A stretch of DNA of 64,000 bases from Archangium violaceum. GTDB taxonomy: Bacteria; Myxococcota; Myxococcia; Myxococcales; Myxococcaceae. Each line of letters starts with the position of its first letter. Position 1 is the first letter of the stretch. Positions 7,543 through 41,824 of this stretch are shown piece by piece. Below the pieces are notes generated by a model that was not told the origin of the DNA, searched no databases, and saw nothing but the letters and a program-made list of their open reading frames with translations. The stretch lies in contig NZ_CP069396.1 in assembly GCF_016887565.1 (NCBI RefSeq), positions 647,001 to 711,000 on the forward strand, in the 5' to 3' direction. Made by a program: the position numbers and the translations under genes.

Positions 7543-9041
7543 CGGGTCTCCTCCGAGGCCTGGAGCGCCGGGGCCAGGGTGGCCTGCCGGCTGGGGTCCT
7601 CGGACTCCACCCAGCCGCGCAGCAGCGCATCGGTGAGGAGCTGGCCGAGCAGGTCGAGCCCGTGGCTCCGCGGGTGGACGAGGTCCTCGTGCACGAACCC
7701 CGCCTGGACGAAGCGCGCCAGCGAGCCGGAGCCTCCCATGGCGGAGAAGATGTCGAAGAAGGCACAGCCCTCGGCGAGGGCGATCTGCCGCTCGATGCCG
7801 ATGACCTCGTCGAGGTAGGGCCGCTGGGTGAGCTTGTTCGGCCCGTTGCCGCCGCGCACGGCGTCGATGGGGCCCATCACCAGGCAGGCGCTGTCGGGGC
7901 TGGCGGCGCGCGAGCGGCGGATGAAGGTGCGCAGACCCTCCTCGACCTCGGCGAGGTTGGAGCGGCCCCACTCGAGCCGCTTGGCCTCGTTGCCGCCGAG
8001 GATGAACAGGAGCAGGCGCGGCGAGCGCTCGGCGAGCTGGGCTCGGAAGATGTCCTCCTGGGCGCGCAGGAAGAGGTTGGCATCGGCGGAGGGTACTCCC
8101 AGGGTGTCGAGCACGATGCCGGGGCGCTGGTGTTGCAGCACCACGCCGAGCACCACGGCGCCTCGGCCCTCGGCGACCACGTCCAGGTTGCGAGCCCCCG
8201 GAGGGAGGTCGAAGGTGAGCGCCTGGGCCTGGCCGTTGCCCCGTGGCTCGGCGCGGGCGAGCTCCTTGCCATCGACATGGACGGACAGCCGGCCGGCGCG
8301 GGGCATGTCGAGCCACCACAGGGTGCCGCGCGGCTCGCCGGTCAGTTGGAACCGGCTGCTGGCCCTGGGCTCGGTGGTCACGTGGTAGACGCCGGTGAGT
8401 CCGAAGGGCAGCTCGGCGAGCTTCAGCTCTCCCAGGGTGCGAGCCTCCCAACCGCCACGCGCGAAGCCGGCGCGGACGCGGGGCCCGTACGGCGCGAGCC
8501 GATCCACGAAGAGCACGCCGCGGCCGCCATCACCGAAGGCGCCGCCGAGCTCCTCGCGCACCACGTCCACGATGCGGTCCCCGGCGATCAGCGAGTTGCC
8601 GAACGCGGAGATGACGGCGGGGGTGGAGGCCTTGCCGGAGGCGAGGGTGTCGAGGGACTCGAAGAAGGGGGTGAGGGCCGTGCGGGAGCAGGAGGCTCCG
8701 GACTGAAGGACGCAGGGGTTCTCCAGGCCGATCTCTGGGCGGACGCCGAGCTTCTCGCCGATCTGGTGGAGCTTGAGGGCCCGGGGGGACGGAGCGGGCA
8801 GCGCGCGCCGGATGGCGGGAGCCGGAGCCGGAGCGGGCTGCACCGGTTGTGCGGACGAGGGCGCCTGGGCGAGCCGGAGCGGCTTGCCGGGCGGCACCGG
8901 GGACCGGACGGTGCGCGGGGCACGGGAATGCCGGGGTACCGCGGGCCGAGACCCGAAGTGCCAGAGGGCCCAGTCGAGCGCACCGAGGAGGAACGGGATG
9001 AGGATGAACGCCCACCGCCGACCACGAAAAGCTTCGAGCAT
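7539..9041 (-). CDS. Membrane-anchored SGNH/GDSL-type hydrolase
   Basis: A 500-residue protein starting MLEAFRGRRWAFILIPFLLG, a single N-terminal membrane anchor, then a Pro/Ala-rich linker (about 45-90). The catalytic region has FGNSLIAGD in place of the classic GDS block I, GGNEAK as the block III Asn, and DLVHPRSHG as the block V Asp-x-x-His. The middle domain (about 200-330) is beta-rich and may bind carbohydrate. Such proteins deacetylate or acylate surface glycans. The stop overlaps the start of the serine hydrolase by 4 bp, so the two are one operon. The upstream ORF start (9173) would run into the SDR gene; the ATG at 9041 places the anchor at the N-terminus. Confidence 0.75.
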   Translation of the reverse strand: MLEAFRGRRWAFILIPFLLGALDWALWHFGSRPAVPRHSRAPRTVRSPVPPGKPLRLAQAPSSAQPVQPAPAPAPAIRRALPAPSPRALKLHQIGEKLGVRPEIGLENPCVLQSGASCSRTALTPFFESLDTLASGKASTPAVISAFGNSLIAGDRIVDVVREELGGAFGDGGRGVLFVDRLAPYGPRVRAGFARGGWEARTLGELKLAELPFGLTGVYHVTTEPRASSRFQLTGEPRGTLWWLDMPRAGRLSVHVDGKELARAEPRGNGQAQALTFDLPPGARNLDVVAEGRGAVVLGVVLQHQRPGIVLDTLGVPSADANLFLRAQEDIFRAQLAERSPRLLLFILGGNEAKRLEWGRSNLAEVEEGLRTFIRRSRAASPDSACLVMGPIDAVRGGNGPNKLTQRPYLDEVIGIERQIALAEGCAFFDIFSAMGGSGSLARFVQAGFVHEDLVHPRSHGLDLLGQLLTDALLRGWVESEDPSRQATLAPALQASEETR

Positions 9042-9147
9042 GCGGCCCGGGACTCTAGACGAAAGCTCCGGACCGAGACAGGAACCGGCCGCGAAGCCCC
9101 CGAGCCGGGCGGCCCACCGCTCTCCCGCTCGCCCTCCCTCCCCGCTT

Positions 9148-9927
9148 TCAGACGGCGCCGGACAGACCTCCATCCACGTTGATGGCCGTGCCGCTCACAT
9201 AGGAGGCGCGCGACGAGACGAGGAAGGCCACCACGTCGGCGAACTCCTCGGCCCGGCCCACCCGCCCCAGGGGGACTCCCGCCTCCCGGCTCCGCTCGGC
9301 GTACAGCTCCTCCGGCGGCTTGCCAGCGGCCTGGGCGCGGCGCTCCCACTGGCCGCTCTCGATCATCCCCACGAGCACGGCGTTGACGCGGATGCCCTCG
9401 GGTCCCAGCTCCTTGGAGAGCACCTTCGTCAGCGCCATCCCCGCCGCGCGGGACACCGACGAGGGCGTGGTGTTCTTCCCGGGCTCCTTGGCCTTGATGG
9501 ACAGCACGTTGACGATGGCCCCTCCTCCGGCCGCGCGCAGGTGAGGCACCGTCAGGCGCACGGCGCGCATCGCGGCGAACAGCTTGAGCTGGAGATCCTC
9601 CTCCCACTCCGCGTCGGTGACCGACAGGAAGGCCTTCGCGGAGGCCGAGCCGGCGTTGTTCACCAGCGCGTCCACGCGTCCCCAGCGCTCGTGCGCGGCG
9701 GCCACGAAGCGCTCGAGGTCCTCCGCGCGCGACACGTCGGCGGGGACGGCGAGCACCTCGCCTCCGAGGGCGCGCAGGCGGGCCGCGGTGGCCTCCAGCC
9801 GCTGCGGATTCCGGGCACACAGCGCCACGCGTGCCCCCTCCTGGACGAGCCGTTCACACACGGCGGCGCCCAGTCCCTCCGAGCCACCCGTTACCAGCAC
9901 CACCTTGCCAGCGAGCTGCAAGTCCAT
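9148..9927 (-). CDS. SDR-family oxidoreductase lacking the catalytic Tyr and Lys
   Basis: A 259-residue short-chain dehydrogenase/reductase. It has the TGGSEGLG nucleotide-binding loop, NNAGSA, and a C-terminal GTAINVDGG typical of FabG-like enzymes. The active-site region reads NVLSIKAKEPGKNTTPSSVSRAAG. Counting 13 from the catalytic Ser places Ser where the Tyr should be and Arg in place of Lys. It may therefore be inactive, or belong to a divergent SDR branch. The start is well supported by GGAGGAGACC upstream. It is followed 106 bp later by the SGNH gene on the same strand. Confidence 0.85.
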   Translation of the reverse strand: MDLQLAGKVVLVTGGSEGLGAAVCERLVQEGARVALCARNPQRLEATAARLRALGGEVLAVPADVSRAEDLERFVAAAHERWGRVDALVNNAGSASAKAFLSVTDAEWEEDLQLKLFAAMRAVRLTVPHLRAAGGGAIVNVLSIKAKEPGKNTTPSSVSRAAGMALTKVLSKELGPEGIRVNAVLVGMIESGQWERRAQAAGKPPEELYAERSREAGVPLGRVGRAEEFADVVAFLVSSRASYVSGTAINVDGGLSGAV

Positions 9928-9975
9928 ACGAGAGGGTCTCCTCCTGCAGAGAGGCCCTCCTTATACACACCGTCG

Positions 9976-10383
9976 TCACGGAGTAGGTGAAGGACCGGAG
10001 CCTCCCACTCCCTGTTGGGACTGCTGCTCCTGGGCCATCGTCGCCCACTGATTCCGGATGGCGTCCTTCTGTGTCTCATCGAGCGCCAGCCACTGCTGGC
10101 GGAGCGTTGGCCACTGGGCCTGGAGCTGATGGAGCTGTGCGCGTTGCTCGGGGGGCAGGCTGGGGTAGAGCGCGGAGAGCTCCCGGGCCGCCTTCTCCTC
10201 GCAGTCCGCCTGCTTGGGCTGGGCCGCTATCTCCTCCATGAAGAAGCAGAGGGCCTCGGCATTGGCCTCGATGAGCCCCGCGGGGGGCGTTCCTCCTGGA
10301 GTGGGTGGGGCGGCGCTCGCCGGCAGTGCCTGGAACAGCGACAGCGCACAACAGAGCGAGGGGACGAGGCGCGGAACTCTCAT
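9976..10383 (-). CDS. Secreted small helical protein, unknown
   Basis: A 135-residue protein beginning MRVPRLVPSLCCALSLFQALPASA, a Sec signal peptide ending in ASA. The mature part has two Cys (ALCFF, ADCEE), then a predicted helical region (about 75-125) rich in Gln, Leu and Ala (RAQLHQLQAQWPTLRQQWL). This resembles the Gln/Trp-rich DUF3106-like pattern, but family membership is uncertain. It is likely periplasmic. It stands alone, upstream of the SDR gene on the same strand. Confidence 0.65.
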   Translation of the reverse strand: MRVPRLVPSLCCALSLFQALPASAAPPTPGGTPPAGLIEANAEALCFFMEEIAAQPKQADCEEKAARELSALYPSLPPEQRAQLHQLQAQWPTLRQQWLALDETQKDAIRNQWATMAQEQQSQQGVGGSGPSPTP

Positions 10384-29950: not shown

Positions 29951-32900
29951 ATGGGACGGACCGGCGATCAGGACGGCCAGGGGTCGGTGCATCTCCATTG
30001 GGATGAAGCGAAGCCCGGGGTGGACGCTGCGGCGTCCGACTTCGGCGATTCATTCCTGATGGAGGTGGCCAGCTATGGCCCGGCGTCGACGTTCCGCCGG
30101 CTGCTCCCCGGAGAGCGGCTGGGGGGCGCGGACGGACGCCGCTTCGAAATCATCGAGGCGCTGGGGGAGGGCTCCATGGGCCAGGTGTTCCGGGCCCGGG
30201 ACGACGAGCTGCAGCGCGTGGTGGCCCTCAAGTTCCTCTTTCCGCGCGAGGAACTCGCCGGCATGGGCCTGAGGGAGGCCCGGGCCATCGCGCAGCTCGA
30301 CCACGAGAACATCGTCCGCATCTTCGACGTGTCCGAGTGGAAGGGGGGACCGGGCGAGCCCACCGTCCCCTTCCTCGTCATGGAATGTCTGGATGGCGAG
30401 TCGCTCGCGGACCTGCTGGCGCGGGAGCGGCGACCCCCCCTGCGGCGCACCCTGGAAATCATGCGCGACGTGGCCGCGGGGCTGGCGCACGCGCACGAGC
30501 ACCACATCATCCACCGCGACCTCAAGCCCAACAACGTCTTCATCTCACGCCAGGGCACGGTGAAGCTGCTGGACTTCGGCCTGGCGTGGCTCGTCACCCC
30601 GGGCAGCGCCATGCACCTGCCCATGGCCGGCACGCCTCCTTATATGGCCCCGGAGCAGTGGCTGGGCGAGCGGGTGGACGCTCGCACGGACGTCTGGGCG
30701 GCCGGCGTCATGATGTACGAGCTGCTCACCGGACAGCTGCCCTACCCGGGTCTGATGGTGGAGGAGATGCGCGAGAAGGCGCTCTCCCCGGAGCCGGTGC
30801 CGTCCCCGCGCGAGCGCAACCCGGAGCTGTCCTGGGAGCTGGAGTCGCTCCTGTCCGTGGCGCTGGCGAAGGATCCCGAGAAGCGTCTTCTATCGGCCGC
30901 GGAGCTGAGGGACGAGCTGCGCGAGTTGGAGGAGCTGCTGCGCCCGGGACGCGAGTCGCGGCGCCTGGTGGCGCCCCAGCGCCGGCAGGTGACGCTGGTC
31001 TTCTGCCGGCTGGCGGGGCTCTCCCCGCTGGCGGAGGAGTTGGATCCGGAGGACTTCGGCGAGCTGGAGGCGACCTTCCACCGCGCCGGCTCGGAGGTCA
31101 TCCAGCACCACGGCGGCTTCGTCACCCTGTGCATGGCGGACGAGCTGCTGGCCTGCTTCGGCTATCCGGTGGCGAAGGAGGGGGACGCGGAGTGCGCGGT
31201 GCTCGCGGGGTTGGACCTGCCCAAGGCCGTGCACGACGCCCTTCACGCGAAGCTGCCGCCGGGGACGAGCCCGGAGCTGGCGGTGCAGGTGGGCATCTAC
31301 ACGGACATGGTCGTGCTGGACGACATCCTCCCGGAGCTGCGGGGGCGCACACCCACCATCCAAGGCGAGGCTCCGCGCATCGCCGCCTGGCTGGCGGGGC
31401 AGGCCGGGCCGGACGAGGTGGTGGTCGGCCCCAACACCCACAGCCTGGTCCAGCGTGCCTTCGACACCGAGCCTCTCGGGGCTCGGGCCTTCGACGGGCG
31501 GCGCACCCTGAGGGCGCACCACGTCTTGCGCTCGCGCGCGGCCGTCATCCGTTTCGAGCGCACGCTCGAGCGGGATGGGAAGTTGAGCTCCCTGGTGGGC
31601 CGCGGGCGCGAGCTTCAAGTGTTGCTCGACGCCTGGCGCCAGGCCCGCGAGGGACATGGGGGGTACGTGCTCGTCAGTGGTGAGGCGGGCATCGGCAAGT
31701 CCCGCCTCATCCAGGAGTTGCGCGAGCGGGTGCTGAAGGAGAAGCCCCTGCTCCTGCGGCTCCAATGTTGGAGCCAGTTCAGCACCAGCGCCTTCCACCC
31801 CGTCATCGAGATGTTGCAGCGGCTGTGGGTGCGTCCAGAGCGCACGCCCGAGGAGAACCTGCGCGCGGTGGAGCGGTTCCTCGAGGAGCGGGGGCTGAGG
31901 CCGGTCCAGGTGCGCCTGCTGGCGTCGCTGGTGTCACTGCCCGTGGCCGAGGACTCGCCGCACCTGCGCCTCACCCCGCAGCGGCAGAAGGACGAGACGC
32001 TGGCGGCCCTGGCCTCGCTGCTGGTGCGCAACGCCGGCGAGCGCCCGTTGCTGATGGTGGTGGAGGACCTGCACTGGGCGGACCCGTCCACGCTGCAACT
32101 GCTGACGTTCCTGCTCGGCATCGTGGAGAAGACGCGGCTGCTCTTCGTCCTCAGCGCCCGGCCCGAGTTCCGCCCGCCCTGGGCGCAGCGCCCCGGCTTC
32201 CAGTCCATCACCCTGGAGCGGCTGCCAGCGGCGTGCACGCAGCAGCTGGTGAACGAGGTGGCGCGGGGACAGGGCCTGCCGGACGAGGTGGTGTCGCAAC
32301 TGGTGGCCCGCACGGACGGCATCCCCCTCTTCGTGGAGGAGATGACGCGCGTGATGTTGGAGGGCGGCTCGGCGGCGTCCATCCCCATCACGCTGCAGGA
32401 GCTGCTGCTGGCCCGGCTGGATTCATTGCCGCGCCGGCACAAGCAGCTCGCGCAGCTGTGCGCGGTGGTGGGGCGTAGCTTCTCGCATTCGCTGCTCGTC
32501 CTCCTCACGGGGCTGGGCGAGGCCGCGCTGCGCAGGGACCTGCTGGGGCTGGTGTCCGCGGGGCTGCTGCAGTCGCGGGACGCGGAGTCCGAGCCCGGCT
32601 ACCAGTTCCGCCACGCCCTCATCCAGGAGGCGGCCTACCAGTCCCTGCCCCGCAGCGCGCGGCGGCAGTACCACCAGCGCATCGCTCGGGCCCTGGCGGA
32701 GCACTTCCCCGAGGAGGCCGGGACCCGGCCCGAGCTGCTGGCCCACCACTACACCGAGGCCGGCGAGGTGAAGCCCGCCATCCGCTACTGGAGACTCGCC
32801 GGCATGCGCGCCAGCCTGCGCTCGGCCAACCAGGAGGCGGTGAGCCACCTCACCCAGGCGTTGAAGCTGCTGCGGGCCCTCCCGGATGCCGAGACGCTCA

Positions 32901-33985
32901 CGAAGGAAGAGCTGCAGCTGCTCATCGCCCTGGGCATTCCGCTGATGCATTTGCACGGCTTCAGCTCCTCCGAGGTGGAGAGCACGTACACGCGGGTGCG
33001 GCAGCTCGTCCTCCAGGTGGGTGAGGAGCTGCCCCGCCTGGAGCTGAGCTTCTGGGGCGCCTTCGCCTACTACTTCGCGCGAGGCAAGACGCGGGAGGCG
33101 CACGAGGTGGGCGAGCTGCTGGTGAGCCTGGGCGAGCGCCAGGGCAACCAGGAGCTGCTCTCCATGGGGCACCGGATGATGGCCACGGACTTCTTCACCT
33201 GGGGCGAGATGAGCCGGGCGTTGAAGCACGTGCGGCAGGCGCTGGAGTACTCGGACTGCGAGCTGGAGCAGCACCGGCTCCTCGCCGTGCGGCACTGGGT
33301 GGACCCGCGCGCGTCGGCGCTGGCCTATGGCTCCGTCATCCTCTCCGTGATGGGACGCGGGGAGGAGGCCGAGCGCTTCGCGCGGGAGGCCCTGGAGCTG
33401 TGCGGGCGCATCGGCCACCCTCACACGACGGCCTTCGTGCTGACATACTGCGCCCTCGGCGCCCAGCTGCGGTGGGACGCGCGGACGACCCTCTCGCTGG
33501 CGGATCAGTGCATCCCGCTCGCACGCGAGCACCGCTTCCTGCTGTGGTACCTGTGGCCCTCCGCGATGAAGGCCTGGGCCCTCTCCGAGCTGGGTCAGCC
33601 GCGGGAAGGCCTGCGGCTGATGCGCGAGGTGATGGAGCAGTGGAAGCTGTCGGGCATCCTCGCCGGCATGCATCACAACCTGGGCATGCAGGCCATCATC
33701 CACCTGCGGCTGGGAGAGGTGCGGGAAGGACTGGCCACCGTGGACGAGGCGTTGACGTGGCCGGCGGTGACGGAGGAGTACTCGTACCTGCCCGAGCTGC
33801 ACCGGGCCCGGGGCGAGCTGCTGCGGCGGGCCGGCCGCGAGGAGGAGGCCCGCGGGGAGTTCCTCCAGGCCATCCAGCTCGCCCACGAGCACGAGATGTT
33901 CGCCTACGAGCAGCGGGCCCAGGCGAGCCTGCGCCGCCAGCTCCAGGAGACGGGCTCGCACGGCGAGGAGCCGCTGCACCCGTGA
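29951..33985 (+). CDS. Ser/Thr kinase with pseudo-cyclase, AAA ATPase and TPR regions (copy 1)
   Basis: A 1,344-residue cytoplasmic signalling protein. The Hanks-type kinase domain (about 65-330) has the Gly loop LGEGSMGQVF, IIHRDLKPNN, LDFGLAW and APEQW. A class III cyclase-like domain follows (about 345-530) with DELLACFGYPVA, but the first metal Asp position reads CRL and the second reads AD, so it should be catalytically dead. A regulatory ATPase (about 540-860) has Walker A SGEAGIGKSR and VVEDLHWADPS. The C-terminal 450 residues are TPR-like helices. Relatives include PknK-like and MalT-like signal ATPases. It is 4 kb upstream of a close paralogue at 37805-41824. Confidence 0.9.
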   Translation: MGRTGDQDGQGSVHLHWDEAKPGVDAAASDFGDSFLMEVASYGPASTFRRLLPGERLGGADGRRFEIIEALGEGSMGQVFRARDDELQRVVALKFLFPREELAGMGLREARAIAQLDHENIVRIFDVSEWKGGPGEPTVPFLVMECLDGESLADLLARERRPPLRRTLEIMRDVAAGLAHAHEHHIIHRDLKPNNVFISRQGTVKLLDFGLAWLVTPGSAMHLPMAGTPPYMAPEQWLGERVDARTDVWAAGVMMYELLTGQLPYPGLMVEEMREKALSPEPVPSPRERNPELSWELESLLSVALAKDPEKRLLSAAELRDELRELEELLRPGRESRRLVAPQRRQVTLVFCRLAGLSPLAEELDPEDFGELEATFHRAGSEVIQHHGGFVTLCMADELLACFGYPVAKEGDAECAVLAGLDLPKAVHDALHAKLPPGTSPELAVQVGIYTDMVVLDDILPELRGRTPTIQGEAPRIAAWLAGQAGPDEVVVGPNTHSLVQRAFDTEPLGARAFDGRRTLRAHHVLRSRAAVIRFERTLERDGKLSSLVGRGRELQVLLDAWRQAREGHGGYVLVSGEAGIGKSRLIQELRERVLKEKPLLLRLQCWSQFSTSAFHPVIEMLQRLWVRPERTPEENLRAVERFLEERGLRPVQVRLLASLVSLPVAEDSPHLRLTPQRQKDETLAALASLLVRNAGERPLLMVVEDLHWADPSTLQLLTFLLGIVEKTRLLFVLSARPEFRPPWAQRPGFQSITLERLPAACTQQLVNEVARGQGLPDEVVSQLVARTDGIPLFVEEMTRVMLEGGSAASIPITLQELLLARLDSLPRRHKQLAQLCAVVGRSFSHSLLVLLTGLGEAALRRDLLGLVSAGLLQSRDAESEPGYQFRHALIQEAAYQSLPRSARRQYHQRIARALAEHFPEEAGTRPELLAHHYTEAGEVKPAIRYWRLAGMRASLRSANQEAVSHLTQALKLLRALPDAETLTKEELQLLIALGIPLMHLHGFSSSEVESTYTRVRQLVLQVGEELPRLELSFWGAFAYYFARGKTREAHEVGELLVSLGERQGNQELLSMGHRMMATDFFTWGEMSRALKHVRQALEYSDCELEQHRLLAVRHWVDPRASALAYGSVILSVMGRGEEAERFAREALELCGRIGHPHTTAFVLTYCALGAQLRWDARTTLSLADQCIPLAREHRFLLWYLWPSAMKAWALSELGQPREGLRLMREVMEQWKLSGILAGMHHNLGMQAIIHLRLGEVREGLATVDEALTWPAVTEEYSYLPELHRARGELLRRAGREEEARGEFLQAIQLAHEHEMFAYEQRAQASLRRQLQETGSHGEEPLHP

Positions 33986-34037: not shown

Positions 34038-34562
34038 ATGAGCTCTTCTTCCCGACGCGCCCTGGATGCACCCGAGGGTGAGCTGGTGGTCCTCTCCCGC
34101 TCGCTCGTCGAGCAGGCCACCGAGGTCTCCCGGACGAGTCCCCGCCGGCGCATCATCCTGCCCTTCCACAAGACCGAGGCCGAGACGCTGCACCGGATGC
34201 TCAACGTCATCCAACCGGACAGCTATGTGCGGCCCCACCGGCACCTGGAGCCGCCGAAGTCGGAGGCCTGGGTGGTGCTGCGGGGCGCGGTCGCCTTCTT
34301 CACCTTCGAGGAGGATGGCCGCGTGCGCGACTGCCTGGCGCTGGAGGCCGGCGGCGAGCACTTCGGCGTGGACCTGGCCCCGGGCATCTTCCATGGCCTC
34401 GTGGCGCTCGCGCCGGACACGGTCCTCTACGAGGTGAAGAACGGGCCCTACGCACCGGCCAATGACAAGTCTTTCGCGCCCTGGGCGCCCGCGGAGGGCA
34501 CCCCAGAGGCCACGAGCTACCTGGCCCGGCTGAGCGAGGAGTTCCGGCGGCGCTACCCGTAA
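34038..34562 (+). CDS. WbuC-type cupin-fold metalloprotein
   Basis: A 174-residue cupin. Motif 1 is HRHLEPPKSEAWVVLRG and a later His (GIFHGLVAL) completes a likely metal site. WbuC-type proteins are found in O-antigen clusters and some act in sugar or cell-surface modification; the exact reaction is undefined. The downstream half carries the family's YEVKNGPYAP. It starts 52 bp after the giant kinase and may share its transcript. It is not near any other glycan gene. Confidence 0.8.
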   Translation: MSSSSRRALDAPEGELVVLSRSLVEQATEVSRTSPRRRIILPFHKTEAETLHRMLNVIQPDSYVRPHRHLEPPKSEAWVVLRGAVAFFTFEEDGRVRDCLALEAGGEHFGVDLAPGIFHGLVALAPDTVLYEVKNGPYAPANDKSFAPWAPAEGTPEATSYLARLSEEFRRRYP

Positions 34563-34690: not shown

Positions 34691-36145
34691 ATGGACGACA
34701 CGAGCGCACGCGTATTTCCAGTTCGAGAGACCGAGGCGACGGGGGACACGCTCCTCCCGCGGCGTCAGGAGGTATCACCCCGGCGGGCGCGAGCCAGGGC
34801 CCGAGTGGCCGCGAGGCGCAACGCGCTGACCGTGGTCGTTCCCATCCAGTCCGACCCCGAGGGGTGCTGGCGGCTGGAGACGGTCCTGAAGGAGATCGGC
34901 CAGGACATCCGGCGCAACCCGCACATCTCCTTCCAGGCGTTGAGGGCCACGCACTTCCTACGCTGGGTCATCGTGCCGGGCCGCGACCGGCGGATGCTGG
35001 CCCTCGAGGCCAACTTCGACGGCTCCGTGGGGGAGTTCCTCGACGACCTCATCCAGGTGGCCGGGAAGACGTTGAAGGAGAGCCTCTACTGCCACTGCGA
35101 GCCGGCCATCCAACGCGAGGATCCGGACGAGGCCCTCAAGGGCTACCTGCTCGACCACGCGCTGCCTGAGTCGCTCTTCTACCGGGGCTATCCGGGCCTG
35201 ACCGTCGAGAGCATCGAGAACGACGCCCGGGTGCGCGCGCTCACCAATGAGTATCTCGACCTCCCCCGGAAGGGCCGTTGGAAGTCGGCGTCACAGCTCC
35301 AGGAGGACATCCGGCGGTACCTCGAACGGGCCGACCCGATGCCGCGGCTCGACCCGGAGCCGGTGCCGTGGAAGACGCGGCTGATGCGGACGCGCTTCGT
35401 GCGCACGCTCCTGGGCGGGCTCTCGCTGCCGGTGGGCATTCCCCTGGGACTGGCCCTGCTGGCCCATGAGGGCGTGGACGTGATGAAGGAGAAGGTGAAG
35501 GCGCGTCTGGGGAGACGCTCGCCGGTGTTGCACGCCTACGGTGACGAGGACGCCAGGCGGTTGGGCGAGCTGCTCGTGCGAGAGGACTTCCAGGCGCAGA
35601 ACCAGCTCACCCACGTGGTGGACCTCAAGCCGGGCCTGCTGCGGGTGCCGCTCATCAAGCTGGCGTTCCGCTACTGGGGCTACCTGGCGACGTACTACTT
35701 CGACGAGGGCAAGCTCGGGGGCATCGAGGGCATCCACTTCGCCCGCTGGGTCCTCGTCAAGGACCGGCGGCAGCACGGGAAGCGGCGGCTCCTGCGCCGC
35801 GCGAAGTACCAGGTGCTCTTCTTCAGCAACTACGACGGGAGCTGGGAGAGCTACCTCGGCAGCTTCGTGGACCGGGCCAGCATCGGCCTCACCACCATCT
35901 GGTGCAACACGGTGGGCTTCCCCCGCACGCGCTTGTGGTTGCGGCCCTTCCGTCTGGAGCTGGGCGCGGACCGCGAGGAGGCCTTCAAGCAGTGGGTGCG
36001 TCAGCACCAGGTTCCCACCCAGGCCTGGTTCTCCCGGCACCCGGACAAGAGCATCGGCAACATCGTCAACAACAGGGAGATCCGCTCGAAGGTCCGGGCG
36101 CGGATGAGCCCGGAGCGGACGAGGGAGTGGCTGCTGTGTCTGTAG
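34691..36145 (+). CDS. DyP-peroxidase-linked protein with internal duplication, unknown
   Basis: A 484-residue protein with GGGAG 8 bp before the ATG at 34691 (34676 is an alternative). Two related blocks are visible: HFLRWVIVPGRDRRMLALEANFDGS (about 88-112; core FLRWVIV and NFDGS) and HFARWVLVKD with FFSNYDGSWESYL (about 349-390). Both follow the pattern RWV-V, a strand, then N(F/Y)DGS and a Leu-rich helix. This suggests a duplicated alpha/beta-barrel fold. A hydrophobic stretch sits between (LLGGLSLPVGIPLGLALL). No catalytic site was recognised. The next gene, a DyP peroxidase, begins 20 bp later, so they are surely one operon. Whether it binds haem, a lipid or the peroxidase is unknown. 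Confidence 0.7.
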   Translation: MDDTSARVFPVRETEATGDTLLPRRQEVSPRRARARARVAARRNALTVVVPIQSDPEGCWRLETVLKEIGQDIRRNPHISFQALRATHFLRWVIVPGRDRRMLALEANFDGSVGEFLDDLIQVAGKTLKESLYCHCEPAIQREDPDEALKGYLLDHALPESLFYRGYPGLTVESIENDARVRALTNEYLDLPRKGRWKSASQLQEDIRRYLERADPMPRLDPEPVPWKTRLMRTRFVRTLLGGLSLPVGIPLGLALLAHEGVDVMKEKVKARLGRRSPVLHAYGDEDARRLGELLVREDFQAQNQLTHVVDLKPGLLRVPLIKLAFRYWGYLATYYFDEGKLGGIEGIHFARWVLVKDRRQHGKRRLLRRAKYQVLFFSNYDGSWESYLGSFVDRASIGLTTIWCNTVGFPRTRLWLRPFRLELGADREEAFKQWVRQHQVPTQAWFSRHPDKSIGNIVNNREIRSKVRARMSPERTREWLLCL

Positions 36146-36165: not shown

Positions 36166-37656
36166 ATGGAGAACATGAAGCAACCACTCGAAACACATGA
36201 CATCCAGGCGCTCGCCTTCGCGGGTTATGGCGAGCTCCGGCGCGCGCGCTACATCTTCCTGCGTCTGGAGGACGCGGCGCGGGCGAAGAAGTGGCTGAGG
36301 GACATCGCCTCGGAAGAGGTGACCACCCAGAAGGCCCTCGAGATGCGCAAGGCGAAGGGGGAGAAGAAGCGCCATGCGCTGCACGTCGCCTTCTCCGCGA
36401 GCGGCCTGCGGAGCCTCGGGTTGAGCGAGCAGGTGCTGGGCTCCTTCCTGCCCGAGTTCGTGGCGGGCATGGCCGAGGAGTACCGTGCCCGCGCCCTCGG
36501 TGACACGGGCTCGAGCGCGCCGGAGAAGTGGCAGTTCGGCGGTCCCGACGCGCGAGGGGAGCGGGACATCCACCTCGTCCTCATGCTCTTCACCCATGGG
36601 AACCTGGACCAGTCGGGGTCGATGGACGCCTACCACCTGCGTCATCGCCAGCGGTACGAGGCGCACGGCCTGCGCGAGGTCTTCATCCAGGACGCCTGCC
36701 TGTTGCCGATGGTCCGCGACGATGGCACCGAGGACGGCTCCCGCGAGGCGTTCGGCTACCGGGATGGCATGACCCAGCCCACCCTTGAGGGCACCCATCA
36801 CAAGCCCGGGCAGAGCGCGCCCCTCAAGGCCGGGGAGTTCATCCTCGGCTACGAGAACGAGTACGGGCAGCTGCCCTTCACACCCGTCGTGCCCGCCGAG
36901 CAGGATCCCCAGGGCCTGCTGCCCGTGCTCGACGTCAAGGGCTCCTCGGCGAAGGACCTGGGGCGCAATGGCTCCTACCTGGTCATCCGCAAGCTGCGGC
37001 AGGACGTGGACGCCTTCGAGCGCTTCCTGTCCGAGCACTGCCATGACCCCGAGGATCCGGAGGGGGACGCCGCGCGCAAGGAACTGCTGGCGGCCAAGAT
37101 GATGGGGCGCTGGCGCAGTGGCGCGCCGCTGTCGCTGTGCCCGGAGAAGGATGACCCGGGGCTCGGCAAGGACCCCGCGCGCAACAACGACTTCTGCTTC
37201 GAGTCGGACCCGAAGGGGCTGCGCTGCCCCCTCAACTCACACGTCCGCCGGAGCAACCCGCGCGACGGGCTCATCCCCGGAGACCCGAAGGAGTCGCTGA
37301 AGATCTCCAACCGCCACCAGCTCCTGCGGCGTGGCCGGCCCTACAAGGACCCGGATGGCGAGCAGGGGCTGATGTTCCTCGCGCTCAACGCCAACATCCG
37401 GCGCCAGTTCGAGTTCGTCCAGCAGACGTGGATGAACAACCCGAAGTTCGGCGGGCACTACGACAGCAGGGATCCCATCGCCGGGGACAACCATGACCCG
37501 GCGGTGGAGGGGAGCGATCCCAAGGCCTATTCGGTGACCATCCCCGGGGAGCCGGTGCGCCAGCGCATCACCGGGCTACCCCGTTTCGTCCACACGCGAG
37601 GCGGCGGTTACTTCTTCCTGCCGGGAATCCAGGCGCTGCGCTTCCTGGCCTCGTGA
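36166..37656 (+). CDS. DyP-type haem peroxidase
   Basis: A 496-residue dye-decolorising peroxidase of the long class. The distal motif GYRDGMTQP (GxxDG, catalytic Asp) is at about residue 196; the proximal haem ligand His is in SHVRRSNPRD at about 358; the distal Arg is probably in RRGRPY. There is no Tat or Sec signal and no encapsulin-targeting tail, so it is cytosolic unless carried by a partner. DyPs oxidise dyes, phenolics or haem-like substrates with H2O2. GGGGG lies upstream of the ATG at 36166; the ATG at 36175 is an alternative. It follows the duplicated-domain protein by 20 bp. Confidence 0.9.
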   Translation: MENMKQPLETHDIQALAFAGYGELRRARYIFLRLEDAARAKKWLRDIASEEVTTQKALEMRKAKGEKKRHALHVAFSASGLRSLGLSEQVLGSFLPEFVAGMAEEYRARALGDTGSSAPEKWQFGGPDARGERDIHLVLMLFTHGNLDQSGSMDAYHLRHRQRYEAHGLREVFIQDACLLPMVRDDGTEDGSREAFGYRDGMTQPTLEGTHHKPGQSAPLKAGEFILGYENEYGQLPFTPVVPAEQDPQGLLPVLDVKGSSAKDLGRNGSYLVIRKLRQDVDAFERFLSEHCHDPEDPEGDAARKELLAAKMMGRWRSGAPLSLCPEKDDPGLGKDPARNNDFCFESDPKGLRCPLNSHVRRSNPRDGLIPGDPKESLKISNRHQLLRRGRPYKDPDGEQGLMFLALNANIRRQFEFVQQTWMNNPKFGGHYDSRDPIAGDNHDPAVEGSDPKAYSVTIPGEPVRQRITGLPRFVHTRGGGYFFLPGIQALRFLAS

Positions 37657-37804
37657 CCGTCTTGCCCTTCCGGGAGGGTGAGCGGCCAGCCCCCGACATC
37701 GCTCCTGCCCTTCCGACCCGTTGCATTGCCCGGTGACCATGAGACCCATAAATTCATTCATCAAGGCCCTCCGAGGCGAGGGCTCGTCGACCGGGGAGCA
37801 GGGA

Positions 37805-40800
37805 ATGCGAGACGAGACCGGTCACAGCAAGGAAGCGTCCCAGGTCGATGACGTGGACTTCGACGATTCCTTCCTGAAGGAGGTGGCGCAGCAGCCACCG
37901 CCCTTCCGCAAGCCGGCCAACGGGGAGCGGCTGGGGGGCTCGGATGGCCGCCGGTTCGAAATCCTCGCGGAGCTGGGCGGTGGGGCCATGGGCCGGGTCT
38001 TCCGCGCGCGCGACGAGGAGCTGCAGCGCGTGGTGGCCCTCAAGTTCCTCCTCCCGCGCGAGGGCCGGGGCGACCGCTGGATGATGACCCTGCTGCGCCA
38101 GGAGGCCCGGGCCATCGCGCAGCTCGACCACGAGAACATCGTCCGCATCTTCGACGTGTCCGAGTGGGTGGGGGAGCCCTGGGAGTCGCGCATTCCCTTC
38201 CTCATCATGGAGTGCCTGGAGGGCGAGTCGCTCGCCGCGCTGCTCCACCGGGAGAAGCGGCTCGGCGTGCGGCGCGCGCTCGACATCATGATCGCCGTGG
38301 CCGCGGGGCTGCAGCACGCGCACGAGCGCCACATCGTCCACCGCGACCTCAAGCCCAGCAACGTCTACCTGGGCAAGCAGGGCACGGTGAAGTTGCTCGA
38401 CTTCGGTCTGGCGTGGCTGACGTCCGGCGTCGCCCCCGGGCAGTACATGCCCTCCGCTGGCACGCCGCCGTACATGTCCCCGGAGCAGTGGCGGGGCGAG
38501 AAGCAGGACGAGCGCACGGACATCTGGTCCGCCGGCGTCATGTTGTACGAGATGCTCACCGACGAGCTGCTCTACCCGAGCGCCACGCTGGAGGAGCTGC
38601 GCGCGAAGGTGGTGTCTCCCGAGCCGGTGCCCTCGGTGCGCGAGCGCCACCCGGAGGTACCCGAGGAGGTGGCGGCGTTGATCGCCGAGGCCCTGGTGAA
38701 GGATCCGCGGCGGCGCCTGCGCTCGGCCACCGAGCTGCGTGACAGGCTGCGCCGGTTGGAGGAGCGGCTGGGGCCCTGGCGCGAGGAGCCGCGCTCCCTG
38801 GCGCCTCAGCGCCGGCCGGTGACGCTGGTGTCCTGCCGGCTGGTGGGGCTGGTGGGGCTCGCCGGGATGTTGGATCCAGAGGACTTCAGTGAGCTGGAGG
38901 CCGCCTTCCAGAAGCGCTGCTCGGAGATCATCCAGGGGCATGGCGGCTCCATCACCACCTGTCTGGGAGACGAGGTGCTGGCCTGCTTCGGCTACCCGGT
39001 GGCGCGCGAGGAGGACTCGGAGCACGCGGTGCGCGCGGGCCTGGAGTTGATCGGCTCGCTGGCGGACGAGCTGCGCGAGCGCCTCGCCCACCCCTTCCTG
39101 CGTTCGCTGGCGGTGCAGGTGGGCATCCACACCGAGCTGGTGGTGTTCGACGACATCCTCCCGGAGCTGCGGGGGCGCACGCCCACCATCCAGGGCGAGG
39201 CCCCGCGCATCGCGTCCTGGCTGGCACGGCGCGCGGAGCCCGGCACGGTGGTGCTCAGTCACACCACGCACACGCTGGTGCAGCGCGGCTTCGAGTCCGA
39301 GGCGATCGGTGCGAGCACCTTCGAGGGTCTGTCCGGAGCGCGTCACATGGAGGCCTGGCGCGTGACGCACGCGCGCAAGACGGTGTTCCGGTTCGATCGG
39401 GCGCTGGTCTCCGGTGCGCTCTCCCCGCTGGTGGGCCGCCAGCGCGAGCTGAGTCAACTCCTGGGCCGCTGGGAGGCGGCGCGCGAGGGCAGGGGCTCGT
39501 TCGTGCTCGTCACGGGCGAGGCCGGCATCGGCAAGTCCCGCCTCGTCCAGGAGCTGCGCCAGCGGGTGTCTCCCGCCACCAGCATCCAACTGCGTTGCCA
39601 GTGTTGGAGCCAGTTCACCAACAGCGCCTTCCACCCCATCATCGACATGCTGCAGCACCTCTTCCGGTTGGATCCGGAAGGCTCGCCGCGTGACAACCTG
39701 ACCCGGCTGGAGGCGAGCCTGGGCGCGTTCGGCATGACGTCGGAGCACATGGCCCTCATCGCCGCCTTCCTCTCGCTGCCGGTGAAGGAGAACCTGCCCG
39801 TCCTCCAGCTCTCGCCGGACCGGCAGAAGGAGCGCACCATCGAGGCGCTGGCGGCCCTGCTGCTGCGCATGGCCCGGGAGCGTCCGGTGTTCGGCGTGGT
39901 GGAGGATCTGCACTGGGCGGACCCGTCCACGCTGGAGCTGCTCGGCCACGTCCTGGGCCGGGTGGATGGGTCTCGTGTGCTGCTCGTGCTGAGCGCCCGC
40001 CCGGGCTTCCAGCACACCTGGCCCTTCCAGGAGCGGCTCCTCTCCCTGTCCCTGGACCGGCTGCCGGCGCGGCTCACCGCCACGCTGGTGCAGGAGGCGG
40101 CCGGCGGCCTCGAGCTGTCCGGGGAGCAGGTGCACCAGCTCGTGGCCAAGACGGACGGCATTCCCCTCTTCGTGGAGGAGATGACGCGCATGGTGGTGGA
40201 GGGCGGCACCCTCTCCTCCATCCCCGTCACCCTGCACGAGCTGCTGCTGGCGCGCCTGGACCGGCTGCCGGAGCGGCGCAAGGCCCTGGCCCAGGTGTGC
40301 GCGGTGGTGGGGCGCGACTTCTCCCATGCGCTGCTGGCCACGTTGACGCGGCGCGACGCCTCCGAGCTGGTGGAGGACCTGGATGCGCTGGTGGCCGCGG
40401 GGCTGCTCCAGCGCGAGGAGGAAGGAGATGGGCCCAGCTACCACTTCCGCCATGCGCTGCTCCAGGACGCGGCCTACCAGTCCCTGCTGCGCAACACCCG
40501 GCGCCAGCACCACCGGCGCATCGCCCAGGCGCTGGTGGAGCAGTTTCCCGAGGTGGTGGAGACGCAGCCGGAGTTGCTGGCCCACCACTACACGGAGGCG
40601 GGGGAGTACGAGCCGGCCATCCGTTCGTGGATGCAGGCCGGCATGCGCGCCAGCCTGCACTCGGCCAACCAGGAGGCGGTGAGCCACCTGCGGCAGGCGT
40701 TGAAGCTGCTGCGCTCCCTGCCCGACGCGGGACAGCGCATCCAGCAGGAGCTGCAGTTGCTCATCGCCCTGGGTATTCCGCTCTCGGCGGTGCAGGGCTA

Positions 40801-41824
40801 CCGCTCGCCCGAGGTGAAGCAGACGTACGTGAGGGCGCGAGAGCTCTTCGGGCTGGTGGGGGACGCGCTGCCGGACCTGGGGCTGTCCTACTGGGGGCCC
40901 TACGCGTACTACTTCGCCCGCGCCGAGTACCGCCTGTCACACGAGCTGGCCGAGCAGCTCGTGGGGCTGGGCTCGCGTCAGCACAACCAGGAGCTGCTGG
41001 CCCTGGGCTACCGGATGATGGCCACCGACTTCTTCATCTGGGGCCGGATGAACGACGCGCGCGAGTTCGTGGAGCGCGCGGTGGCGTGCGCGAACTTCAC
41101 CCTGGCGCAGCACCGCGAGCTGGCCGTGCGGCACTGGGTGGACCCGAAGTCGATGGCGCTGAGCCACGCCTCCGTCGTCCACTCCGTGCTCGGCCAGCCG
41201 GAGCGGGCGCGGCGGTACTGCGATGAGGCGCTGGCGCTGGCCGAGCGCATCGGCCATGCGCACACCCGGGCCTATGTGCTGCTCTACGCGGCCGTGTCCT
41301 GCCAGCTGCGCCACGACGCGCGGGGCACGCTCGAGCTGGCCGAGGAGTGCCACGCCCTCTCGCGCGAGCACTGGTTCCGTCTGTGGCTGGTGTGGTCGGG
41401 TCTGCTGCGCGGCTGGGCGCGCGCCGAGCTGGGGCTCCCCGAGAAGGGGCTGGAGCAGATGCGCGAGTGGCTGGGCAAGTGGCGGACCGCGGGTCTGCGG
41501 GCCGGCATGCCGCACCATCTCGGGTTGTTGGCGGAAGTGCACCTGCGGTTGGGGCATCCCCACGAGGCGTTGCTCTCGGTGCACGAGGGATTGAAGTGGG
41601 GCGAGGCGGTGGGCGAGCGCTTCTATGAGGCGGAGCTGCACCGGATCGGAGCCGAGGCCCAGCGGTCGCTGGGCCACGAGGAGGAGGCGCACGGGTGCTT
41701 CCTCGAGGCGGTGCGCGTCGCGCGCGAGCAGGGCGCCGGGGGTTACGAGCGGCACGCCCTGCTGGCCATGGGGCGCTCGCCAGCGGAGCCGGGACCCGGA
41801 GCGGAGACGCCACGGCCGGTGTGA
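37805..41824 (+). CDS. Ser/Thr kinase with pseudo-cyclase, AAA ATPase and TPR regions (copy 2)
   Basis: A 1,339-residue paralogue of the protein at 29951-33985, with the same domain order. Kinase motifs are LGGGAMGRVF, IVHRDLKPSN, LDFGLAW and SPEQW. In the cyclase-like domain the first metal site again reads CRL, but the second keeps GDEVLACFG. The ATPase has TGEAGIGKSR and VVEDLHWADPS. The start at 37805 has GGGGAGCAGGGA upstream; ATG at 37739 is possible. It is directly followed by a sigma factor gene with 0-45 bp between them, which suggests joint expression and perhaps kinase control of the sigma factor. Confidence 0.9.
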   Translation: MRDETGHSKEASQVDDVDFDDSFLKEVAQQPPPFRKPANGERLGGSDGRRFEILAELGGGAMGRVFRARDEELQRVVALKFLLPREGRGDRWMMTLLRQEARAIAQLDHENIVRIFDVSEWVGEPWESRIPFLIMECLEGESLAALLHREKRLGVRRALDIMIAVAAGLQHAHERHIVHRDLKPSNVYLGKQGTVKLLDFGLAWLTSGVAPGQYMPSAGTPPYMSPEQWRGEKQDERTDIWSAGVMLYEMLTDELLYPSATLEELRAKVVSPEPVPSVRERHPEVPEEVAALIAEALVKDPRRRLRSATELRDRLRRLEERLGPWREEPRSLAPQRRPVTLVSCRLVGLVGLAGMLDPEDFSELEAAFQKRCSEIIQGHGGSITTCLGDEVLACFGYPVAREEDSEHAVRAGLELIGSLADELRERLAHPFLRSLAVQVGIHTELVVFDDILPELRGRTPTIQGEAPRIASWLARRAEPGTVVLSHTTHTLVQRGFESEAIGASTFEGLSGARHMEAWRVTHARKTVFRFDRALVSGALSPLVGRQRELSQLLGRWEAAREGRGSFVLVTGEAGIGKSRLVQELRQRVSPATSIQLRCQCWSQFTNSAFHPIIDMLQHLFRLDPEGSPRDNLTRLEASLGAFGMTSEHMALIAAFLSLPVKENLPVLQLSPDRQKERTIEALAALLLRMARERPVFGVVEDLHWADPSTLELLGHVLGRVDGSRVLLVLSARPGFQHTWPFQERLLSLSLDRLPARLTATLVQEAAGGLELSGEQVHQLVAKTDGIPLFVEEMTRMVVEGGTLSSIPVTLHELLLARLDRLPERRKALAQVCAVVGRDFSHALLATLTRRDASELVEDLDALVAAGLLQREEEGDGPSYHFRHALLQDAAYQSLLRNTRRQHHRRIAQALVEQFPEVVETQPELLAHHYTEAGEYEPAIRSWMQAGMRASLHSANQEAVSHLRQALKLLRSLPDAGQRIQQELQLLIALGIPLSAVQGYRSPEVKQTYVRARELFGLVGDALPDLGLSYWGPYAYYFARAEYRLSHELAEQLVGLGSRQHNQELLALGYRMMATDFFIWGRMNDAREFVERAVACANFTLAQHRELAVRHWVDPKSMALSHASVVHSVLGQPERARRYCDEALALAERIGHAHTRAYVLLYAAVSCQLRHDARGTLELAEECHALSREHWFRLWLVWSGLLRGWARAELGLPEKGLEQMREWLGKWRTAGLRAGMPHHLGLLAEVHLRLGHPHEALLSVHEGLKWGEAVGERFYEAELHRIGAEAQRSLGHEEEAHGCFLEAVRVAREQGAGGYERHALLAMGRSPAEPGPGAETPRPV

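Follow-up and report, generated by a model that had tools for sequence, protein, structure and literature searches.

The CDS at 34691..36145 on the forward strand of the window (the whole stretch of Archangium violaceum DNA analysed here, 64,000 nucleotides) encodes a protein of 484 residues, P0001, that is probably a dedicated subunit of, and inherited together with, one lineage of class V DyP-type peroxidases, where it would hold the substrate and/or open the haem pocket. The computed results are a tandem duplication, a shared predicted barrel fold, a near-obligate pairing with the DyP, natural fusions of the two proteins, and a hydrophobic linker in most of the two-repeat forms. The role of dedicated DyP partner that was originally predicted for P0001 is, at the level of sequence comparison, strongly supported by the adjacency found in both search directions and by the natural fusions. 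DyPs are well known, as is the barrel fold; in the top-ranked open-licence PMC literature we found no description of the partner family, of its link to a DyP lineage or of the P450 or catalase-like protein as a third member.

The partner gene and its internal duplication

The reading frame is open over the whole of 34691-36145, and an 82% identical ortholog from the same genus aligns from residue 1. The stop codon is followed after 20 nt by the ATG of the DyP gene (P0002) at 36166, which agrees with the coupling at 20 bp in the original prediction. P0001 is the only match in its own 13.2 Mb genome at E 0.001, it hits no Pfam or NCBIfam model at E 1, and there is no sequence match to the DyP families of these two collections. 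Scanning genome contigs with the single sequence gave no relative whereas a scan with the P0001 alignment succeeded, and a sequence search of the PDB with P0001 or with a one-repeat profile gave nothing convincing. An oligogalacturonate lyase match in the PDB (E 0.003) extends over 31 positions and was regarded as a chance match; the oligogalacturonate lyase family is the commonest weak match in Pfam, with 6 of 76 relatives and 1 of 16 repeats.

The two repeats are located at 34817..35260 (about residues 43–190) and 35591..36040 (about residues 301–450), both on the forward strand and each a predicted ferredoxin-like half. The motifs are H88-F-L-R-W-V...A-N-F-D-G-S in the N half and H349-F-A-R-W-V...S-N-Y-D-G-S in the C half. 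The two motif blocks described in the original prediction are real, but the distance of 260 residues given for them fits only the first, the RWV blocks being 261 residues apart and the NxDGS blocks 272 owing to an insert between strands of the C half. When residues 40–205 are aligned with residues 300–484 the Smith-Waterman score is 89, with a mean of 29.0 and a standard deviation of 4.75 for shuffled sequences and none of 2000 shuffles as high, and a comparison between profiles of the two halves, built from 12 relatives, gives a probability of 99.0 and an E-value of 8e-18. Together with the same predicted fold order in both halves this bears out the proposed duplication, and sequence and model support a true internal duplication in P0001 with one fold per half.

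Predicted fold and structural relatives

The AlphaFold2 model of P0001, built with 76 sequences, has a pLDDT of 85.9 and a pTM of 0.85. Unrelated folds of the two halves would have spoken against the earlier claim, but residues 45–165 and 303–448 share the order β-α-β-β-α-β in the model, with a long helix of residues 235–272 joining them. A Foldseek search with the model gave one match at E <0.001, WhiE-ORFI (9lmn, 3.2e-4), which is also the nearest among the matches listed by VIA-align, with a Z of 15.5 over 223 residues and a model range of 28–451, and AbxO (9ltx) is matched with Z 12.1. Single halves match dimeric α+β barrel proteins with Z 5 to 7 (7byu on residues 44–165 with 7.3, 5xzt on residues 296–449 with 5.3), which may reflect just a common arrangement. 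The haem-binding IsdG/IsdI proteins are found at Z about 5, in a fold class that has many other proteins too. According to the model, P0001 belongs to the dimeric α+β barrel superfamily, having two ferredoxin-like halves packed as one barrel, so that the duplication seems to have produced, in one chain, a pseudo-dimer of a fold for which two chains are often required.

P0001, with no family at E 1, does not reach the curated cut-off of the Pfam ABM family (PF03992); ABM was hit by one of the 16 repeats tested, with E 0.051, and is absent among the 25 of 54 weak families that were listed. DyPs are absent among the best 50 matches of the P0001 fold searches, though they might still share an ancestor with P0001. 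WhiE-ORFI and the SchA/CurD-like ABM barrels (9lmn; Streptomyces) are like P0001 in having a pseudo-dimeric α+β barrel that spans both halves, but P0001 is only 10% identical to WhiE-ORFI, is without ABM over the cut-off, has a hydrophobic stretch between its halves and is encoded beside a DyP. The SchA/CurD-like proteins consist of an ABM domain and a PKS cyclase domain and are found in clusters of the spore-pigment type, and ABM-fold proteins have been argued to be non-catalytic, chaperone-like helpers of enzyme complexes (PMC6689052), which offers a precedent for P0001 as a subunit.

Conserved residues and linker

Invariant positions in 76 two-repeat sequences are, in the C half, H349, W353, N380, Y388, F392, W404, P411, G425 and R437 and, just ahead of it, E298. 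In the N half H88 and D110 are kept in 75 of 75 sequences each, with few other conserved positions. The asymmetry between the halves suggests one working site mainly formed by the C half, and from the fold and the conserved residues substrate binding by P0001 is plausible. Both repeats have a conserved histidine at the equivalent position of their second strand (75/75 and 76/76); in a mixed alignment of 16 repeats it is retained in 15, and L023:5244-5837 has Glu.

The linker helix of residues 235–272, encoded at 35393..35506 on the forward strand, contains a single, modest hydrophobic stretch (hydropathy 1.95 from residue 240) that might contact the membrane. Such a stretch was detected in 68 of the 76 two-repeat relatives, 31 of them having at least two, and 8 are without one at the threshold used.

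Pairing of the partner with the DyP

In 117 genomes of the phylum of the window the partner profile was found at 28 places in 23 genomes and full-length DyPs at 30 places in 25 genomes (compared by eye). All 28 partner places are beside a DyP and all 30 DyP places have a partner, with L119 and L127 being detected only by a more sensitive local HMM; these two have a one-repeat partner upstream of the DyP, and the match in L127 is weak. Samples of Actinomycetota (198 genomes), Cyanobacteriota (146), Alphaproteobacteria (190) and Bacteroidota (198) were added, the group names being inferred from the sample centres, as well as 10 plasmid loci picked for diversity among 60 of 81 records. When loci with at least 600 nt upstream were counted from the DyP and binned by DyP profile score, the partner was present in 45 of 45 loci with at least 350 bits (including the window and L186, identical to L065, both known beforehand through the partner), in 4 of 6 between 300 and 350 bits, and in 2 of 17 below 300 bits. 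Thirty loci of this count are from the phylum of the window, many of them close relatives, and are therefore not independent events. No partner was detectable at L182 (348 bits) and L203 (339 bits).

A tree was made from 105 DyPs, after dereplication at 70% identity, with a quick method that leaves deep forks weak. It requires two changes of partner state, compared to an average of 14.3 when the labels are shuffled, and places 13 of the 14 DyPs without a partner in one group. Among 30 DyP loci fetched from 24 genomes that were selected for having a partner, 29 are accompanied by one. Two further Dyp_perox_C loci in the genome of the window have no partner within 1.5 kb; the same family search missed the DyP of the window itself.

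From the partner side, a scan of one genome per species in 84,980 species gave 251 relatives, and the best 80 of these were kept and inspected with a DyP detection HMM built from DyPs already known beside partners. A DyP is encoded in the next or the same ORF in 76 of the 80 loci; three of the others end with the contig (L025, L028 and L064) and the fourth (L053) has transposase-like ORFs. In 19 of the 80 partner and DyP constitute a single ORF, and L070 resembles a twentieth with a broken frame. All nine plasmid loci examined (of 23 records, tblastn) have the DyP next to the partner or fused to it, and in 59 related genomes this is the case for 14 of 15 partner matches, the remaining one ending at a contig end. 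A frequent occurrence without a DyP gene, which would have told against the original prediction, is not seen, and pairing is found in both search directions as well as in the fusions. In L053, from Dyadobacter frigoris, the partner ORF at 8986-10368 is directly followed by the transposase-like ORFs (10271 onward, by eye) and the genome gave no DyP match, so that the DyP was perhaps lost by insertion. A 175-residue ORF at L013:1456-1983, in a genome of the same genus, joins a piece of the partner (280–335) to the end of a DyP (385–496) and is a decayed second copy.

Members of the partner family are present in 11 phyla, namely Myxococcota, Pseudomonadota, Bacteroidota, Cyanobacteriota, Actinomycetota, Planctomycetota, Armatimonadota, Gemmatimonadota, Acidobacteriota, Vulcanimicrobiota and Deinococcota. 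The 171 classified entries comprise 87 with one two-repeat gene, 44 with one one-repeat gene, 3 with two one-repeat genes, 33 with the partner fused to the DyP, and 4 called as three-repeat that are probably split matches, numbers that describe types and not frequencies as the 33 fused entries correspond to 26 distinct loci (seven were fetched again).

The DyP and the Deinococcus radiodurans enzyme

P0002 is encoded at 36166..37656 on the forward strand (496 residues) and is a class V-like DyP. It passes the Pfam cut-offs of DyP_N (33.8 against 27.5 bits) and Dyp_perox_C (32.4 against 20 bits) and that of TIGR01413 in NCBIfam (108.6 against 100.5). The GXXDG aspartate and the proximal histidine are present as D200 of GYRDG and H359, and these residues, together with G197 and R388, are invariant in 15 DyP sequences. 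The closest solved structure by sequence is the DyP of D. radiodurans (DR_A0145, 8re2/8re3) with E 8e-64, and the DyP part of a natural fusion is also nearest to 8re2/8re3, with Z 40, compared to about 26–27 for DyPs associated with encapsulin.

The D. radiodurans DyP falls within the partner-bearing lineage. In the D. radiodurans record a 'hypothetical protein' of 243 residues is encoded 1 nt upstream of the DyP and is matched by the one-repeat profile with E 9e-41, and a catalase-family gene follows the DyP. The catalase neighbour of the D. radiodurans DyP is DR_A0146 (PMC7143949), and from the species, the family and this neighbouring catalase we infer that the DyP gene in the record is DR_A0145. 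As in the window the partner is thus directly upstream of the DyP, but it has one repeat instead of two, the neighbour is catalase-like, and the enzyme has been studied without its partner. At pH 7.5 the enzyme purified alone is in a six-coordinate low-spin state and shows no activity, and above pH 4 its activity is almost nil; the crystal structure of the recombinant protein, expressed without the partner, contains haem (PMC10820274). Its authors speculate that protein interactions, for example with encapsulin, may govern the enzyme in vivo, and the terms operon, partner and neighbour are absent from the main text (PMC10820274). The physiological role and substrates of DyPs are described there as unclear. 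Low pH optima are general among DyPs (PMC10820274; SaDyP1 in PMC8395514), and inactivity at pH 7.5 does therefore not by itself require a partner.

The partner is encoded beside nearly every examined member of the Deinococcus-type DyP lineage, which includes this enzyme that is inactive alone, and it may therefore be the missing subunit of the Deinococcus DyP. Should the partner activate or direct the DyP, the biochemistry of lone DyPs of this lineage would have to be redone, and a P450 or catalase-like neighbour would indicate the pathway.

Possible function of the partner

The partner would bind the DyP in the cytoplasm, with two-repeat forms often at the inner face of the membrane. The barrel might hold a lipophilic substrate or product in the conserved site, located mostly in the C half around H349, W353, N380, Y388 and W404, and/or it might cap and open the haem pocket of the DyP, which would then work at neutral pH. 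One-repeat members should form the barrel as homo- or heterodimers, and the gene of the window would be the fused form. The pTM of 0.67 for the predicted model of a partner-DyP fusion counts against a subunit, as do the partner without a DyP in its genome (L053) and the two DyPs without a detectable partner (L182 and L203); the 8 of 76 two-repeat members without a hydrophobic linker and the modest stretch in the window count against the membrane location.

The adjacency of partner and DyP could also mean a shared pathway alone, and the residues that never vary in the C half would fit a catalytic enzyme as well. The partner might itself be an ABM/SchA-like enzyme (a cofactor-independent oxygenase, cyclase or decarboxylase) that acts before or after the DyP with a metabolic link and no stable complex, given that its nearest folds are of this type and act on polyketides (9lmn with Z 15.5 and 9ltx with Z 12.1) and that H349, W353, N380, Y388, W404 and R437 are all invariant. 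We consider this rather unlikely, as a subunit fits better with the close pairing with, and fusion to, one DyP lineage across 11 phyla while the third gene varies, and no ABM sequence match is over the cut-off. By analogy with IsdG/IsdI in the same fold class, and with one histidine conserved at the equivalent strand position in each repeat (75/75 and 76/76), the partner might instead bind haem, as a chaperone that loads the DyP or as a second haem centre, but the Z of about 5 is within the range of a common arrangement and the recombinant D. radiodurans DyP holds haem though expressed without the partner (PMC10820274), which makes a haem-binding role improbable. Close relatives, of which there are many among the examined loci, share neighbours anyway, and an ordinary operon location with no physical or pathway coupling could look similar; it is very hard to reconcile with an adjacency that holds across 11 phyla where no other neighbour is as widely shared, and with the existence of single-chain fusions. 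A subunit of the DyP is thus the preferred reading.

Encapsulin with a DyP as cargo is, like the partner in the window, a dedicated protein partner of a DyP, but it is a shell of the HK97 fold (PMC8346489) and not a barrel protein. The KinJ haem enzyme with its partner ferredoxin (PMC12154649) was considered and rejected as an identity, being different proteins, and is a precedent only.

P450 and catalase-like neighbours

A third gene was surveyed in 112 loci with mean flanks of 7.0 kb upstream and 5.9 kb downstream, each at most 9 kb. A P450 is present in 40 loci, in 35 of which it is fused to the partner-DyP block or at most 600 nt away from it (34 on the same strand), and a catalase-like protein is present in 13, always within 600 nt and in 11 on the same strand, counts that are inflated by kinship and come from profiles built from the same matches. 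The two never occur together within this distance; L147 contains both, with the P450 at 1.4 kb, and in 64 of the 112 loci neither is found within 600 nt. The window itself lacks any match to a P450 or a catalase. P450, partner and DyP are in one ORF in 15 loci. The third gene is upstream in Methylomonas and Actinoplanes, downstream in Archangium and Bacteroidota, and fused in Alphaproteobacteria, and these varied positions argue for repeated assembly.

The neighbouring P450 or catalase-like haem protein might take the product of the DyP onward. It is conceivable, and we put it forward tentatively, that these genes constitute a bacterial, often membrane-associated haem-enzyme module with partner and DyP acting first and the P450 or catalase-like protein second, that makes or clears organic hydroperoxides such as oxidised lipids, and in which the partner is an obligate activator at cytoplasmic pH. 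Such a module would be a DyP-based counterpart of the peroxidase-P450 and catalase-like oxylipin pairs. The peroxidase of fungal linoleate diol synthases is of the cyclooxygenase superfamily and not a DyP, and these enzymes are not known to include a barrel partner. Their haem peroxidase domain is joined to a P450 (PMC4420034; PMC13049297), as in the P450-partner-DyP fusions.

Fatty-acid genes are found beside few loci, a 3-hydroxyacyl-CoA dehydrogenase in L138, L141 and L142 (with two weak matches elsewhere) and an oleate hydratase in L141, which is too few for naming a substrate. The acid motif of the P450 I-helix is tied to oxygen activation with a redox partner. That all adjacent P450s are without this acid was considered and dropped, since 23 of the 40 have D or E, 16 have proline and L099 has serine. 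The 16 with proline comprise 14 fused forms together with L020 and L102, and these might have no need of a redox partner for activating oxygen. The alphaproteobacterial fusions L018, L082, L088, L091, L092, L094–L097, L100, L101 and L103 have a class III cyclase-TPR gene about 1.5–1.7 kb away, and 9 loci have a Crp/Fnr-like gene nearby; a cyclic-nucleotide link of the P450-partner-DyP fusions is possible.

Neighbourhood of the pair and cassette exchange

Upstream of the partner, at 34038..34562 on the forward strand, is a gene for a cupin of the WbuC family (TIGR04366, E 4.7e-41), which by tblastn is present in three loci of the same genus and was not found in seven other loci tested. The cupin, partner and DyP genes are flanked by two paralogous regulators on the same strand with kinase, cyclase-like, AAA_16 and TPR parts, A at 29951..33985 and B at 37721..41824, which are 58% identical to each other; the cyclase-like part was recognized by eye with no Pfam call. 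Regulator A has 23 matches in the genome of the window at E 1e-20, itself included, and kinase matches within 5.5 kb of the DyP are found in 21 of 96 loci, mostly from Myxococcota (L066 is doubtful).

In L135, of the same genus, kinase A, cupin, partner, DyP and kinase B are ordered as in the window with 81–96% identity. L026 and L027, also of this genus, have kept kinase A (77%), the cupin (86%) and kinase B (74–77%), and between them is a partner (38%) and a DyP (54–56%) in the opposite orientation, followed by a P450. A divergent and inverted pair between kept neighbours indicates that partner and DyP seem to move as one unit and to be swapped jointly as a cassette.

A conserved protein of 341 residues without a Pfam match is encoded between the one-repeat partner and the DyP at L119:2804-3826, and it recurs near a one-repeat partner and a DyP in 11 loci that were fetched, among them loci of Streptomyces and Nostoc, with matches in L139, L140, L217–L223, L225 and L227.
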